A stretch of DNA of 64,000 nucleotides, taken from contig CADAES010000003.1 in assembly GCA_902786975.1 (NCBI GenBank), positions 62,001-126,000 on the forward strand, in the 5' to 3' direction. Made by a program: the position numbers and the translations under genes. The DNA comes from an uncultured Ruminococcus sp. Lineage in GTDB: Bacteria > Bacillota > Clostridia > Oscillospirales > Ruminococcaceae. Below are positions 30,077 to 54,136 of this stretch, piece by piece. The notes below the pieces were generated by a model that made no database searches, was not told the DNA's origin, and was given only the letters and a program-made list of their open reading frames with translations. Positions within the stretch are counted from its first letter, which is position 1; every line of letters starts with the position of its first letter.

Positions 30077-30155
30077 TTTGGTGCAGTCGTATTAGCATTA
30101 AACAGAGTCCACGTACAGACCGTGGTTTGTGTTTATTGCTAATGTCTTCACCAAA
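30077..30155 (+). promoter_or_regulatory. Long hairpin in the pnp leader, candidate processing site
   Basis: A 79-base imperfect hairpin stacks four paired segments: TTTGGTG/CACCAAA, ATTAGCA/TGCTAAT, TAAACA/TGTTTA and CCACG/CGTGG, 25 base pairs in all. It ends 17 bases before the pnp ribosome site. E. coli pnp carries a comparable leader stem that RNase III cuts and PNPase then degrades to limit its own synthesis. The same control is inferred here, not shown. Confidence 0.6.
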
Positions 30156-30184
30156 TGAAAAATCTTGATTTGGAGGAAGAAAAA

Positions 30185-32302
30185 ATGTTTGAGAATTTCA
30201 GGACTTTTGAAACTACCTATGCAGGAAGACCTGTCAAGGTAGAAACAGGAAAGACATGCGGACTTGCAAACGGCTCCTGCTGGGTAAGATACGGCGAGAC
30301 TGTCGTTATGGCTAACGTTACAGCGTCTGCAAAGCCGAGAGAGGGCGTTGACTTTTTCCCCCTTTCCGTAGATTTTGAGGAGAAGATGTATTCCGTAGGC
30401 AAGATCCCCGGCTCTTTCACAAAGAGAGAGGGCAAGGCTTCCGATAAGGCTATCCTTGCTTCAAGATGCGTTGACAGACCTATCAGACCTCTGTTCCCAA
30501 AGGATATGAGAAACGACGTAACAGTTGTTATCACAGTCCTTTCCGTTGACCCCGACAACTCACCCGAGATCGCAGGAATGATCGCTGCATCTATAGCTAT
30601 CTCGATCTCCGATATCCCTTGGAACGGACCTGTTGCATCTATCAACGTAGGCTATGTTGACGGACAGCTCGTTCTCAATCCTACTCTTGAGCAGAGAGCA
30701 CATAACGACCTCAACCTCACCGTTGCAGGCTCTGCCGAGAAGGTCGTAATGATCGAGGCAGGCGCTAACGAGATACCCGACGATCTTATGCTCGAAGCTA
30801 TCAAGTTCGGTCATGCCGAAATAAAGAATATGGTCGCATTCATTTCCGATATCCAGAAGCAGATCGGAAAGCCCAAGTTCGAGTTCGAGTCTATGGAGCT
30901 TGACCACGATATGATGGATAAGATCGCTGAGAAGTTCGGCGATAAGCTCAAGTATGCACTTGATACAGACGATAAGACAGTAAGAGACGCAAGACTCGTT
31001 CCTATCCAGGACGAGATACTCGAAACATTCTCCGAGGAGTATGAGAACCTTCCCGATATAATCGGAGAGGTAATGTACAAGGCACAGAAAACTATCGTAA
31101 GAGAGTGGCTGTATAACGGCAAGCGTGTTGACGGCAGAGGCATCGACGAGATAAGACCTCTCGCTGCCGAGGTAGGCGTTCTTCCGAGAGTTCACGGCTC
31201 CGGTATCTTCACCAGAGGTCAGACTCAGGTTATGACTATCGCAACACTCGGTCCTGTATCCGACGCTCAGAAGCTTGACGGACTCGATGAGGAAACAACC
31301 AAGAGATATATGCACCAGTATAACTTCCCGTCTTATTCTGTAGGCGAGACAAAGCCTTCAAGAGGACCCGGAAGACGTGAGATAGGCCATGGCGCACTCG
31401 CTGAGAGAGCACTCGTTCCTGTTATCCCGTCTGTTGAGGATTTCCCGTATGCTATCCGCTGCGTTTCCGAAGTCCTTTCTTCCAACGGTTCAACATCACA
31501 GGGCTCTATCTGTGGCTCTACACTTGCACTTATGGATGCAGGCGTTCCTATCAAGGCTCCCGTTGCAGGTATCTCCTGCGGACTTATCACCAAGGAGGAC
31601 GGCAGCTGGATGACAATGGTTGATATCCAGGGCCTTGAGGACTTCTACGGCGATATGGACTTCAAGGTAGGCGGTACAAAGAAAGGTATCACAGCTATCC
31701 AGGTGGATATCAAGGTAGACGGACTTACCTACGATATTATCGCAAGCGCATTTGAGAAAACACATAAAGCAAGAAACTATATCCTTGACGAGGTAATGCT
31801 CAAGGCTATCCCTGAGGTCAGACCTACCGTCAGCAAGTGGGCACCGAAGATGCTTACTACAAAGGTACCTGTTGACAAGATCCGTGAGGTCATCGGCTCA
31901 GGCGGAAAGGTCATCCAGAAGATCTCTGCTGACTGTGAGGTCAAGATCGACATCACCGAGGAAGGAAACGTATTTGTTTCCGGTCTTGATCTTGACAAGG
32001 CAAAGCAGGCTATCGCAATAATTGATACTATCGCTAATGACCCCGAGGTAGGCGCTATCTATAAGGGCAAGGTCGTTAAGCTGATGCAGTTCGGTGCTTT
32101 TGTTGAGATAGCTCCGGGCAAGGACGGACTTGTACACATCTCCAAACTCGACAAGCAGAGAGTTGAAAAGGTAGAGGACGTTGTATCCGTTGGCGACGAG
32201 ATCGTAGTAAAGGTTATGGAGATCGACAGCCAGGGCAGGATCAACCTTTCAAGAAAAGACGCTCTCGCAGACATCGAAGCAAAGAAGAACGCAGAGCAGT
32301 AA
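30185..32302 (+). CDS. pnp: Polyribonucleotide nucleotidyltransferase (PNPase)
   Basis: PNPase degrades RNA 3' to 5' with phosphate. The 705 residues contain two RNase PH domains (the second with 'GRGIDEIRPLAAEVGVLPRVHGSG' in parts, 'SRGPGRREIGHG' and 'KEDGSWMTMVDIQGLEDFYGDMDFKV' in parts), a KH domain ('IREVIGSGGKVIQKI', near residue 565) and an S1 domain ('GKVVKLMQFGAFVEIAPGKDGLVHIS', near residue 620). The start is ATG 30185 with GGAGG 8 bases upstream; ATG 30155 is in frame but sits at the foot of the leader hairpin. Confidence 0.96.
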   Translation: MFENFRTFETTYAGRPVKVETGKTCGLANGSCWVRYGETVVMANVTASAKPREGVDFFPLSVDFEEKMYSVGKIPGSFTKREGKASDKAILASRCVDRPIRPLFPKDMRNDVTVVITVLSVDPDNSPEIAGMIAASIAISISDIPWNGPVASINVGYVDGQLVLNPTLEQRAHNDLNLTVAGSAEKVVMIEAGANEIPDDLMLEAIKFGHAEIKNMVAFISDIQKQIGKPKFEFESMELDHDMMDKIAEKFGDKLKYALDTDDKTVRDARLVPIQDEILETFSEEYENLPDIIGEVMYKAQKTIVREWLYNGKRVDGRGIDEIRPLAAEVGVLPRVHGSGIFTRGQTQVMTIATLGPVSDAQKLDGLDEETTKRYMHQYNFPSYSVGETKPSRGPGRREIGHGALAERALVPVIPSVEDFPYAIRCVSEVLSSNGSTSQGSICGSTLALMDAGVPIKAPVAGISCGLITKEDGSWMTMVDIQGLEDFYGDMDFKVGGTKKGITAIQVDIKVDGLTYDIIASAFEKTHKARNYILDEVMLKAIPEVRPTVSKWAPKMLTTKVPVDKIREVIGSGGKVIQKISADCEVKIDITEEGNVFVSGLDLDKAKQAIAIIDTIANDPEVGAIYKGKVVKLMQFGAFVEIAPGKDGLVHISKLDKQRVEKVEDVVSVGDEIVVKVMEIDSQGRINLSRKDALADIEAKKNAEQ

Positions 32303-32319
32303 TCATCAGAATATCACAG

Positions 32320-32349
32320 GCGGACGGTCAAAGCCGTCCGCTTGTTTAT
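32320..32349 (+). terminator. Terminator of pnp
   Basis: GCGGACGG (32320-32327) and CCGTCCGC (32334-32341) form a perfect 8-bp stem with a 6-base loop, followed by a T-rich stretch. Confidence 0.8.
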
Positions 32350-32378
32350 TGACACCGCAAGTTCGCTGAGCATATAAT
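32349..32378 (+). promoter_or_regulatory. Promoter directly before the cloverleaf leader
   Basis: A perfect -35 TTGACA (32349-32354) and a perfect -10 TATAAT (32373-32378) are 18 bases apart. The start of transcription should fall at about 32385, two bases before the cloverleaf. Confidence 0.75.
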
Positions 32379-32386
32379 AGTGTACA

Positions 32387-32463
32387 GCCGCCAACATTTT
32401 ATCCGCAAGCGGATAAAATTCACGGGTCTTCGACCCGCAGGGAGCGAAGCTCCCGTTGGCGGC
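32387..32463 (+). promoter_or_regulatory. Perfect four-way-junction (cloverleaf) RNA leader
   Basis: The outer stem GCCGCCAAC (32387-32395) pairs without mismatch with GTTGGCGGC (32455-32463). Inside it are three perfect hairpins in a row: 11-bp arms at 32396-32419, CGGGTC/GACCCG at 32423-32437 and GGGAGC/GCTCCC at 32440-32454. Only five junction bases (TCA and CA) are unpaired. It sits between the predicted transcription start and the ribosome site of the next gene. It could be a structured 5' leader with a regulatory or stabilising role, or a dispersed repeat that happens to lie there. It is not a tRNA. Confidence 0.65.
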
Positions 32464-32487
32464 GCAAAGCTCAGCGGGGGTGGTAAG

Positions 32488-32847
32488 ATGTTATTGAGCA
32501 TAATAGTAACAGTGACAATAGCCGCAGCAGTCATAGGTTCGTTCTGCCTGCGTGCGGTCAGACTCGATAAATGTAGGAATAAGCGAAGCTATGTCCTCGT
32601 GCCGTGCTTTGAAGAAACAGATGACCTGCAGCGCTATGTCAAATCGCTCTATTGGGACGAGGTGTTTAAAAGCAGCAGCCCGGTAAGAGATATCATCCTG
32701 CTGTGCGGCGAAAATGAAAAAGCCGCAGATGCCGCAAAAAGCATCTCGAATATTCTCGATAACGTCTATGCAGTAAACGCCGGTGATCTCGTACAGTTTC
32801 TGAAGCAAAGGGAGGTGTCCGAAAATGGAGAAAAAAGAATACGATAA
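32488..32847 (+). CDS. Small membrane-anchored protein of unknown function
   Basis: I do not recognise this 119-residue protein. It opens with one membrane helix ('LLSIIVTVTIAAAVIGSFCL'). The rest is soluble, with 'YVLVPCFEETDDLQRYVKSLYWDEVF' in parts and 'DIILLCGENEKAADAAKSI', which suggests a small alpha/beta domain. ATG 32488 has GGGGGTGG upstream. It overlaps recD2 by 23 bases and is co-transcribed with it from the promoter at 32349. Confidence 0.65.
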   Translation: MLLSIIVTVTIAAAVIGSFCLRAVRLDKCRNKRSYVLVPCFEETDDLQRYVKSLYWDEVFKSSSPVRDIILLCGENEKAADAAKSISNILDNVYAVNAGDLVQFLKQREVSENGEKRIR

Positions 32848-35065
32848 GCTCTCCGGAGAGGTCGACAGTATCATATTCAAAAGCAGCGAAACAGGCTTTT
32901 GCGTGCTTATGCTCAATTCAGGCAGCGACCTTGTAACAGTCGTCGGCGAGCTCGGCGATGTCGAGGAGGGCGAGGAGCTTGACCTCACAGGCGAGTTTAC
33001 TACTCACGCCAAGTACGGAGAGCAGTTCAAGGTCGTTATGTTTGACCGAACTCTGCCCCAGACTACCGAAGCGATCCAGAAATACCTCTCAAGCGGCGCT
33101 ATTGCAGGTATCGGCCCCGTCATCGCAAGACGCCTCGTAAAGGAGTTCGGCGATGCTACCCTCGATGTTATCGAGAACGAACCTGAAAAGCTCACCGTTA
33201 TCGAGGGTATCACCAAGAAAAAAGCTAAGAAAATATCAAACGACTTTCGTTCAACGTTTGCCGTGCGTTCGCTGATGAGCTACCTCAGCAGTATGTCCGT
33301 CCCTGTTTCCTACGGCGTTAAAGCCTGGCAAAGATGGGGCGACCCCGTGCTTGGTATGATAAAAGCCAATCCCTACCTGCTTTGCTCGTTCGGCGTAGAC
33401 CTTCCGTTCACAAAAGCTGATGAGATCGCTGCAAAGCTTGAATTTCCGCCCGAGAATAAAAACAGGATAAAAGCGGGTATCGAGTATGTCCTCGGCCAGA
33501 ACGCCGATTCGGGTCATACCTGCCTGCCTCTGGATAAGCTCAGAAAGCTATGTACCGATTTTCTTAAAATATCCGATGAACAATTCAAAATGGTCCTCGA
33601 CGAGCAGCTCGAGGATCAGATGCTCTATTGCTATTATAAAAACCAGCGCCCGTTCATTATGCTGAAGGATTATTATAAAGCCGAGGACTATATCGCAAGA
33701 CGGCTTTGTATAATGCGCCAGCTTACATACGATAACCGTATCGACTTTTCTGCTCTTATCGATCTGGAAGAGGAGACCAACGGCATAACCTACGAAACTA
33801 TCCAAAGACAAGCTATAAATCTTGCCTTGTCCAAAGGCTTTCTCGTGCTGACCGGCGGCCCCGGAACAGGAAAGACCACTACCCTCAACGCCATAATCTC
33901 GCTGTACCAGCAGCAGTGCCTCAACGTTATGATATGTGCCCCCACAGGCAGAGCAGCAAAGCGTATCTCCGACCTTACGGGCTATGAAGCCAAAACTATA
34001 CACAGACTTCTCGAGGTGCAGTATTCTGTCGGTGACATACCGCATTTCAAGCATTGTGAAGAAGACCCTCTCGACTGTGATGCCCTGATAATCGACGAGA
34101 TGTCTATGGTCGATTCTCTTTTGTTTGAAGCGCTCCTGCGTGCTATAAAGATAAACTGCAAGCTCGTCCTCGTCGGCGACAGCGACCAGCTCCCGTCTGT
34201 CGGCGCAGGAAATGTGCTGAAGGATATTATCGACAGCGGTGCGATGTCCGTCGTAACGCTCAAGGAGATATTCCGCCAGTCGAGAGAATCCGAGATAGTA
34301 ATGAACGCCCACAAGATTGTCAGCGGTCAGCCTATCGACTATACCGTAAAGGATAAGGACTTTTTCTTCTTCCAGCGCCTTGAATTTCAGGGCTTGCAGG
34401 AACTCGTTGTCTCGCTTTGCAAGGACAGGCTTCCCAAAGCCTATAAGCTTTCCCCGATAAGCGATATACAGGTCATCTCCCCGACAAGACAAGGACCTGC
34501 GGGAACAGTCGAGCTGAATAAACTGCTCCAAAAAAAGCTCAATCCGAAAATGTCGGGAAAAAGCGAGATAAAGACTCCGGTATATACCTACCGTGCTGGC
34601 GATAAGGTAATGCAGACTAAAAATGATTATCAAATACAGTGGAGCAAACAGCTTGAAGACGATTCGACCGAAAAGGGAACAGGTATCTTCAACGGCGATA
34701 TCGGTATCATTCAAAGCGTAAACAGTATTCTTAAAACGGCTGTTATAAGCTTCGACGGAAGAATCGCCGTGTATAATCTCCCGATGCTGGACAACCTTGA
34801 GCTTGCCTATGCGGTCACTGTGCATAAAAGCCAGGGTTCGGAATTTGAATATGTAATCCTCACCGTGTTCGGCGGCTACGATAAGCTCTATTACCGTAAC
34901 CTCCTGTATACCGCCGTTACAAGAGCCAAGAAAATGCTTATAATCGTCGGTTCAAACAAGCGTGTTGACTTTATGATATCCAACGACAGGCGTACCCTGC
35001 GCTATACAGCCTTAAAGAACATGCTTCTTGAATACGTCAGGGAGGACGACAATGAAGCTGAGTAG
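32825..35065 (+). CDS. recD2: RecD2-type DNA helicase
   Basis: This 746-residue superfamily 1B 5'-3' helicase of the stand-alone RecD2 type has an N-terminal OB-like part, tandem helix-hairpin-helix units ('IAGIGPVIARRLVKEFG', 'IEGITKKKAKKI'), Walker A 'GGPGTGKTTT' near residue 342, 'PTGRAAKRI', Walker B 'LIIDEMSMVD' near residue 421, 'GDSDQLPSVGAGNVL', and the C-terminal 'AYAVTVHKSQGSEF' and 'LYTAVTRAKK'. RecD2 works in DNA repair without RecBC. It overlaps its neighbours on both sides. Confidence 0.93.
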   Translation: MEKKEYDKLSGEVDSIIFKSSETGFCVLMLNSGSDLVTVVGELGDVEEGEELDLTGEFTTHAKYGEQFKVVMFDRTLPQTTEAIQKYLSSGAIAGIGPVIARRLVKEFGDATLDVIENEPEKLTVIEGITKKKAKKISNDFRSTFAVRSLMSYLSSMSVPVSYGVKAWQRWGDPVLGMIKANPYLLCSFGVDLPFTKADEIAAKLEFPPENKNRIKAGIEYVLGQNADSGHTCLPLDKLRKLCTDFLKISDEQFKMVLDEQLEDQMLYCYYKNQRPFIMLKDYYKAEDYIARRLCIMRQLTYDNRIDFSALIDLEEETNGITYETIQRQAINLALSKGFLVLTGGPGTGKTTTLNAIISLYQQQCLNVMICAPTGRAAKRISDLTGYEAKTIHRLLEVQYSVGDIPHFKHCEEDPLDCDALIIDEMSMVDSLLFEALLRAIKINCKLVLVGDSDQLPSVGAGNVLKDIIDSGAMSVVTLKEIFRQSRESEIVMNAHKIVSGQPIDYTVKDKDFFFFQRLEFQGLQELVVSLCKDRLPKAYKLSPISDIQVISPTRQGPAGTVELNKLLQKKLNPKMSGKSEIKTPVYTYRAGDKVMQTKNDYQIQWSKQLEDDSTEKGTGIFNGDIGIIQSVNSILKTAVISFDGRIAVYNLPMLDNLELAYAVTVHKSQGSEFEYVILTVFGGYDKLYYRNLLYTAVTRAKKMLIIVGSNKRVDFMISNDRRTLRYTALKNMLLEYVREDDNEAE

Positions 35066-35777
35066 AAAAATCAAAGGGTATATTTCCGACTGGTTCCTGC
35101 CCAACCGCTGTCCCGTCTGTGATAAGCTTATCACCTGGGATAAGTTCGTGTGTGCAGACTGCGAAAAAGAGCTTTGCGAAATATCCGATACCCTTTGTCC
35201 TGTCTGTGCAAAGAAGCCTTGTGCCGACCATAGCAAGCTTCGCTTTGACTGCGCTGTTGCACTTTATCCGTTCAGAAATAAAGCCAAGGAAGCTGTCTAT
35301 GCACTTAAATATCACGACGGCGTGAATATCGGCGAGCTTTGCGCACAGGGACTTGCAAACGTCCTCAGAAAGCGTGGCCTCGTACAGCAGATAGATATCA
35401 TTACCTGTGTCCCTATGAGCAGGGACAGACTGAAAAAGCGAAAAAGGAACCACTCGGCAGTTATCGCAAAAGCTCTTGCCGATGAGCTTGATAAACCGTT
35501 TGACGCAAAACTGCTTGTCCATCTGCCCGGCGATGTTCTCCAGCACCGCCTCAAAGCCGGCGAACGTGCGGAAAACGCTTCTAAGGTTTTCAAGGCTGGG
35601 GCACAGCACAGAGATATAAAGGGCTTGACCGTCCTTATCTGCGACGATGTCTATACCACAGGTGCGACCCTGAACAGCTGTTCAGCCTTGCTTCGGACTA
35701 TGGGCGCCGAAAGGATAATTGCCGCCTGCGCAGCAACAACGCTGCGTGATGAAGTCGAAAATAAAGACGAAGCCTGA
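35052..35777 (+). CDS. ComF-family phosphoribosyltransferase-like protein
   Basis: This 241-residue protein has an N-terminal zinc ribbon ('CPVCDK', 'CADCEK', 'CPVCAKKPC'), 'ALKYHDGVNIGELCA', 'PMSRDRLKKRKRNHSA' and the phosphoribosyltransferase loop 'ICDDVYTTGATLN'. ComF helps single-stranded DNA handling in natural transformation, together with ComFA helicase and PriA. In non-competent species it may serve repair. ATG 35052 has GGGAGG upstream and lies inside the end of recD2, so the two are coupled. Confidence 0.88.
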   Translation: MKLSRKIKGYISDWFLPNRCPVCDKLITWDKFVCADCEKELCEISDTLCPVCAKKPCADHSKLRFDCAVALYPFRNKAKEAVYALKYHDGVNIGELCAQGLANVLRKRGLVQQIDIITCVPMSRDRLKKRKRNHSAVIAKALADELDKPFDAKLLVHLPGDVLQHRLKAGERAENASKVFKAGAQHRDIKGLTVLICDDVYTTGATLNSCSALLRTMGAERIIAACAATTLRDEVENKDEA

Positions 35778-53905: not shown

Positions 53906-54070
53906 TCAGCTTTTTGCCTTAAAGGTCCTGCACTGTGTTTCGTCACAGCAGCCCGGGTCCTTGCAGGTGCAGCAAACATCAATGCAGTTTGCTGTACATT
54001 CGTGAGGATCTCTGTTGTAGACACAGCTGCTGACATCGCAGTTTATCCCGTGTTTCTTTTCCATTTCCAT
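53906..54070 (-). CDS. Small Cys-rich DUF1540 protein
   Basis: This is a 54-residue gene. It contains eleven Cys in the DUF1540 pattern: 'INCDVSSCVYN', 'HECTANCIDVC', then 'CTCKDPGCCDETQCRTFK'. The Cys spacing suggests metal binding. Family members are common in Clostridia and of unknown role. The ribosome site AAGGAG lies 9 bases before ATG on the minus strand, and the promoter is strong. Confidence 0.85.
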   Translation of the reverse strand: MEMEKKHGINCDVSSCVYNRDPHECTANCIDVCCTCKDPGCCDETQCRTFKAKS

Positions 54071-54084
54071 TCAAGCTCACTCCT

Positions 54085-54136
54085 TTTTGCAGTTGTCCTG
54101 CAAAAGTATTATATGCCGCAAACGGCAGATTATCAA
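54085..54136 (-). promoter_or_regulatory. Promoter of the DUF1540 gene with two inverted repeats
   Basis: On the minus strand TTGATA (54136-54131) and TATAAT (54113-54108) are 17 bases apart. One inverted repeat, TGCCG/CGGCA (54114-54127), fills the spacer. A second, perfect 8-bp one, TTTTGCAG/CTGCAAAA (54085-54105), covers the start of transcription up to the ribosome site. Both are fitting places for a repressor or an RNA hairpin. Confidence 0.65.

Follow-up and report, generated by a model that had tools for sequence, protein, structure and literature searches.

Why does a perfect RNA cloverleaf lie between a promoter and the first gene of an operon that comprises a small membrane-protein gene, recD2 and a comF-like gene? 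The locus is part of a stretch of 64,000 nt from an uncultured Ruminococcus sp. (assembly GCA_902786975.1, contig CADAES010000003.1, positions 62,001 to 126,000 of the forward strand), which is called the window throughout. Our comparison of leaders of the small gene suggests that conservation is broad for the promoter and for a hairpin enclosing the Shine-Dalgarno sequence, and that the cloverleaf was added last to a device that is older. A two-transcript translational lock with a sigma-K-type promoter and a cloverleaf insert is probably the explanation of the whole. The features of the locus are as follows (window positions, all on the plus strand).

30155 to 32302, plus strand: open reading frame of the upstream gene, which from its protein we take to be pnp
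32320 to 32350, plus strand: terminator-like hairpin of pnp, whose T tract is weak (arms 32320-32327/32334-32341 and TTGTTTATT, taken directly from the sequence; absent from the terminator-scan list)
32349 to 32354, plus strand: -35 element TTGACA, of the sigma-K-type form TnACA and also a perfect sigma-A element
32354 to 32371, plus strand: left arm of the putative lock (segments 32354-32358 and 32362-32371)
32370 to 32379, plus strand: -10 element GCATATAATA, of the form GCATANNATR, with TATAAT within
32384 to 32386, plus strand: predicted transcription start of the short RNA, placed by the position of the -10 element, 6-8 nt past GCATANNAT
32387 to 32463, plus strand: cloverleaf, a four-way junction of 31 pairs
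32469 to 32484, plus strand: right arm of the putative lock (segments 32469-32478 and 32480-32484)
32476 to 32483, plus strand: Shine-Dalgarno region GGGGGTGG
32488 to 32847, plus strand: small membrane-protein gene, 119 aa, without known family
32825 to 35065, plus strand: recD2 (TIGR01448, 800.7 bits)
35028 to 35777, plus strand: comF-like gene (TIGR00201, E 2.8e-24, under the curated cut-off of that model; Pfam Pribosyltran and DZR_2)

A base-by-base check of the cloverleaf showed an outer stem of 9 bp (32387-32395/32455-32463) and three hairpins (32396-32405/32410-32419, 32423-32428/32432-32437 and 32440-32445/32449-32454), all of them perfect Watson-Crick helices. The original prediction, an earlier reading of the bare sequence, had described this 77-base architecture correctly and had overcounted its paired bases, which number 62 instead of 72. 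The minimum free energy of 32349-32487 as RNA is -68.5 kcal/mol, compared with -40.9 +/- 3.6 for 200 dinucleotide shuffles (z -7.7, 0/200 as low). The cloverleaf region is the most stable among 3,194 segments of 120 nt scanned on the plus strand, and none of 9,132 sampled 77-nt segments contains at least 62 paired bases (step 7, which misses the exact position of the element). There was no Rfam family at gathering score and no tRNA match for the cloverleaf, in agreement with the earlier statement that it is not a tRNA; its assignment to tRNAs or to a known Rfam family was rejected accordingly.

A further stem, which had been missed, encloses the cloverleaf (32362-32371/32469-32478, ten pairs, two of them wobble) and continues with five more pairs (32354-32358/32480-32484, one wobble), thereby taking in the Shine-Dalgarno sequence. 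It brings together the stretch between the -35 and -10 elements and the Shine-Dalgarno region of the small gene, a pairing that recurs across leaders. The leaders compared here are those of the small membrane-protein gene standing before recD2 in the genus, and those of its relatives in other genera of the family. The 29 genomes of the genus provided 27 leaders from 26 genomes, with two from G025; G013 has no recD2 match at the cut-off, the contig of G010 ends before the leader, and G014 has no such leader. In this set G027 and G005 were added and the Shine-Dalgarno sequence of G009 was set by hand. The family set of 33 genomes matching the small protein provided 30 loci, five of which belong to the genus; 22 of the other 25, from nine genera, were used, and L096, L099 and L101 were left out for want of a usable leader.

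Left arms pair better with the Shine-Dalgarno region of their own leader than with that of another, in the genus (n=27, z -5.1), outside it in the nine genera (n=22, z -6.1) and for all 49 leaders together (z -8.5; 0/20,000 permutations in each of the three comparisons). The advantage is retained when each close cluster of the genus is represented by a single leader (n=19, z -3.5, p 0.00045). The letters of the arms vary all the while, as seen by eye in ACGCC/GGCGT of G028, CACCT/AGGTG of G004, GGCTC/GAGCC of G027 and CCGTAC/GTACGG of L095. At its predicted start the promoter's own, short RNA lacks the left arm, and a long RNA started upstream can pair this arm with the Shine-Dalgarno sequence, weakly so in 11 of the 49 leaders. 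The median energy for opening the Shine-Dalgarno sequence is 7.3 kcal/mol in the long versus 2.7 in the short RNA of the genus, and 7.4 versus 3.1 kcal/mol in the other genera (the short RNA was cut 14 nt past CATA, or 12 nt where the Shine-Dalgarno sequence is too near). Shuffling of the left arm gives medians of 4.8 (genus) and 3.8 kcal/mol (other genera), and the long RNA exceeds the short one by more than 2 kcal/mol in 20/27 and 18/22 leaders, respectively. The values for the window are 8.3 for the long and 1.7 for the short RNA; with a shuffled arm the former is 6.0 +/- 1.3, and 1/40 shuffles reached the native value. The dpaA genes of the genus, which have a similar promoter, served as a control. 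They showed no fit of the own arm (n=19, z +1.3, p 0.91), with opening medians of 1.5 versus 2.0 and a difference above 2 in 1/19. These 19 of 26 dpaA loci passed a filter that demanded C at -18 and G before CATA; several dpaA start codons or promoters are doubtful, and one falls on Ns.

At the promoter of the small gene, the 27 genus leaders share TnACA-N16-GCATANNATR at fixed spacing, in which CATA and AT are invariant by construction, being demanded by the search pattern, and the other letters were not imposed. The column counts, which comprise 25 genus rows, show C at -18 in 23, T at -21 in 20, A at -17 in 18 and a G before CATA in 23, and positions -16 to -2 hold at most 0.6 bits. In the nine other genera, as counted by eye, C at -18 is found in 19/22 leaders; a strict -10 element CATANNAT is present in 14/22, and eight depart from it. 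According to PMC3416734, the sigma-K consensus of Bacillus subtilis is KCACM / GCATANNNTA and the sigma-E -35 element is TYATATTT. The genus motif is close to the former and unlike the latter, and the promoter in the window, whose -35 TGACA matches 4/5 of KCACM, has the layout of a sigma-K promoter. The dpaA gene is described as sigma-K-dependent in Clostridioides difficile and B. subtilis (PMC3789822). Its counterparts in the genus, that of the window's own genome G000 included, exhibit the same motif at the same spacing (by eye). Genes for spoIVA, which we take to be a sigma-E gene, were found in 28/29 genus genomes; the motif is present in 0/26 of the spoIVA upstream regions examined, a result that was listed as adverse and judged neutral as a comparison. 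The original prediction had also placed a consensus promoter ahead of the element, and this held: the match to the sigma-A consensus is 12/12 with an 18-bp spacer, and the start would fall 1-3 bases ahead of the cloverleaf. By its layout the promoter is better read as of sigma-K type, one that in this species also fits the sigma-A consensus. The presence of sigma-K itself in the genus is likely, judged from sequence matches.

In the mechanism that we propose, the small membrane-protein gene would have its own sigma-K-type promoter, as used in the mother cell during sporulation; motif and spacing are observed, and dependence on the sigma factor is suggested by them. RNA from upstream, which would arise by read-through from pnp and in some other genera from a nearby vegetative promoter, would carry the promoter sequence and pair it with the Shine-Dalgarno sequence. 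Pairing and co-variation are observed, and translation of the small gene would thereby be blocked. In the window we assume that the long RNA passes the pnp hairpin with its weak T tract; pnp precedes the small gene here and in seven other genus leaders (by eye). RNA started at the promoter itself begins past the left arm, would form no lock and is predicted to be translated. As recD2 has its own Shine-Dalgarno sequence downstream, the operon could yield RecD2 and ComF without the small protein. The recD2 start lies 23 bases inside the end of the small gene (32825-32847), an overlap through which translation of the two genes could be coupled; RecD2 output would then depend on the lock. In this species and in G009 the cloverleaf lies in the stretch between the start site and the Shine-Dalgarno sequence; it would leave the lock unchanged and give the short RNA a highly stable 5'-terminal structure. 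A fuller version holds that promoter choice delivers RecD2 and ComF from the locked RNA in growth and the small membrane protein as well in the late mother cell, that this logic is family-wide despite the turnover of the arms, and that the cloverleaf acts as a 5' cap domain recognised by a protein or ribonuclease. In all its parts together this version is unlikely.

The phylogenetic reach of the cloverleaf is narrow. Blastn and a covariance model (E up to 1) detected one copy in the genome of origin, and the model found it in two of the 29 genus genomes, G000 and G009, at the identical location; none is visible by eye in the printed leaders of the nine other genera, where the model was not run. 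In the MAFFT alignment of the two cloverleaves four pairs show a change on both sides, and slid partners yield 0 or 1; with hairpin 3 registered by hand, five pairs are changed on both sides and two are broken. Both tests of the original prediction, copy number and compensatory changes, came out on the side of a selected RNA structure over a dispersed repeat, the first by the single genomic copy and the second by the two-sided changes in the sole homologue. What does not stand is a central role, because an element present in only 2/29 genus genomes is not the core of the regulation. The widely conserved ligand-binding core of a riboswitch is likewise not seen in an element of such limited occurrence. 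The two-sided changes support selection on the fold, to the extent that two sequences, which are few, may do so.

Several results weigh against the proposed lock and its parts. The gain in opening energy does not exceed 2 kcal/mol in 11/49 leaders (G002, G003, G012, G019, G024, G026, G027, L076, L077, L097 and L094, for the last of which the short-RNA value was not computed), and compared with shuffled arms only 16/27 and 12/22 leaders stand out at a level of at most 4/40. A sigma-A promoter upstream was accepted in 16/49 leaders, about three being expected from shuffles (13/22 in the other genera, 3/27 in the genus, -35 located 54-86 nt before CATA), and the window is not among them. The pattern ACA-N15-GCATANNATR has four matches in the window's own genome, the window included, versus four in the reversed control; the motif alone thus defines no regulon, and a sigma-K regulon based on it in this genome was rejected. 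The sigK model TIGR02846 matches in 29/29 genus genomes, is above its cut-off in 0/29, and also picks up other sigma factors in 11/14 control genomes. The perfect sigma-A match in this species may let the promoter fire in growth. As to the cloverleaf, 34/500 column shuffles match the observed count of two-sided changes, and template switching could be an alternative source of such changes in adjacent pairs. The opening energy of the window is finally 8.2 with the cloverleaf shuffled and 8.3 with it removed, as compared with 8.3 for the native sequence, which leaves the cloverleaf as a cap required for the lock unsupported.

Inserts of this kind are not confined to the cloverleaf. At least 40 nt separate CATA from the Shine-Dalgarno sequence in 6/49 leaders, which contain the cloverleaf (G000, G009), a hairpin (G008, G012) and hairpins (L076, L077). 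All six inserts, 25-88 nt in length, fold on themselves (z -3.7 to -7.5). Shuffling of the insert lowers the opening energy from 5.9 to 4.2 in G009 (9/60 reaching the native value) and from 7.9 to 6.2 in G008 (10/60), and deletion does not lower it in either; in G012, L076 and L077 shuffled inserts lock equally well or better. Either only self-folding inserts are tolerated, or a structure at the 5' terminus is itself useful to the short RNA. The likeliest role of the cloverleaf in its own right is protection of the 5' end of the short mRNA from decay, which we advance tentatively and at somewhat less than an even chance. It is possible, with more doubt than confidence, that the cloverleaf is a tolerated neutral insert. 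One explanation in this direction credits template switching between the arms with keeping the cloverleaf perfect and assigns it no function. Hairpins can arise and persist through template switching (PMC8794818), and the explanation is in line with the position of the two-sided changes in adjacent pairs, with the presence of the cloverleaf in only 2/29 genomes and with the indifference of the window's lock to it. Constraint is suggested, however, by the outer stem and three hairpins that stay paired in both species and by the self-folding inserts of two other lineages. We regard a functionless insert of this origin as a serious possibility, one that falls well short of probable.

An ordinary sigma-A promoter would offer another account, in which a housekeeping mRNA carries the cloverleaf as its 5' structure and the stem around it is incidental. 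The 12/12 consensus match and the lack of enrichment of the motif in the genome speak for it, and recD2 and comF are growth-phase genes. A sigma-A promoter, however, would not leave the two middle bases of the -10 element free while keeping the G before CATA in 23/25 rows; the dpaA promoters look alike, and the arms co-vary with the Shine-Dalgarno sequence in 49 leaders. This account is distinctly unlikely, and we retain the sigma-K-type reading.

The insertion of a mobile palindromic element between promoter and Shine-Dalgarno sequence in the ancestor of G000 and G009 would fit the sharp presence and absence among close relatives as well as the perfect modular hairpins. Apart from the same-place homologue of G009, however, neither the genome of origin nor the 28 further genomes of the genus yield another copy at E up to 1, and no flanking duplication is seen. 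No exact match to a 30-base pattern from both cloverleaves was present in viral contigs, and blastn of 32340-32500 against plasmids and phages gave no match. A mobile origin is improbable, and a dispersed palindromic repeat (REP, MITE) was rejected, a single copy each being present in the genome of origin and in G009. An inverted repeat acting in DNA as the operator of a dimeric regulator over the promoter would explain why the -10 element lies between the two arms in most leaders, but it is very improbable, because arm letters and spacing turn over between species while the pairing stays, whereas a repressor site would keep its letters, and the Shine-Dalgarno sequence fixes the right arm.

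Some observations around the promoter stand by themselves. By eye, two of the other three motif matches in the genome of origin are within or antisense to genes, and one precedes a likely ZIP-type metal transporter gene (L104, G000:C12:10281-10308, minus strand). A second structured short leader is located in the window at 54070-54116 on the minus strand, where a Cys-rich gene of 54 aa (DUF1540, E 3.3e-8) has ahead of it GCATATAATA, then a hairpin of 8 bp (TTTTGCAG/CTGCAAAA) and a Shine-Dalgarno sequence; this leader has no AC at the place of a sigma-K-type -35 element. The sigK-like match is split into two half-length pieces in G022, G027, G005 and G011 (those of G022 lie about 37 kb from each other), the pattern that a skin-like element inserted in sigK would leave.

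For the small protein itself, neither Pfam nor NCBIfam gave a family at E 0.001, and sequence matches in Pfam and PDB were only weak. It consists of a single membrane helix, likely and N-terminal, with a short soluble portion; its strand pattern, by eye, presumably recalls half of a Rossmann-like fold. Matches were found in 33/297 family genomes and 14/126 genera, the three weakest being doubtful. G025 has two recD2 matches (L043, L060), and a separate small membrane-protein gene with a promoter leader accompanies each of them. The proposed lock draws attention to a small membrane protein, as yet uncharacterised, whose production these bacteria apparently avoid in growth. The 49 leaders with co-varying arms from ten genera represent a natural data set on the insulation of development-specific genes from read-through, and they illustrate that conservation within a device can be lowest in a striking RNA structure.

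Searches of the open-licence literature found no report of such a lock in this operon or family, and its parts have relatives elsewhere. Terminal stem-loops at the 5' end protect mRNA in the ermC, aprE and ompA leaders. Like these, the short RNA of the window would have a stable structure within a few nucleotides of its 5' end, which differs in being a four-way junction, not one hairpin. The sigma-K promoters of endospore formers share the KCACM / GCATANNNTA layout with the window (PMC3416734), whose copy is in addition a perfect sigma-A promoter and matches 4/5 of KCACM with its -35 TGACA. The closest likeness in logic is that of the phage T4 late genes I-TevI, segB, soc and e, in which, as described in PMC2988022, a hairpin hides the ribosome-binding site in RNA from an upstream promoter, and RNA from the late promoter is too short for the hairpin, which limits translation to the late programme. 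The window leader is predicted to follow the same logic; unlike that of T4, its system belongs to the chromosome, in an operon found in ten genera of a single bacterial family; the promoter is of sporulation type, the arms co-vary and the loop of two species holds a cloverleaf. The same logic has been proposed for a read-through hairpin of B. subtilis sigG (PMC5942855), likewise a sporulation gene, from which the window differs in gene, sigma type and sequence; the sigG hairpin is described as proposed, whereas the lock presented here rests on co-variation across species. The logic of the lock is thus known from the T4 late genes and proposed for sigG; its spread, its place in a recD2-comF operon and the cloverleaf are new.
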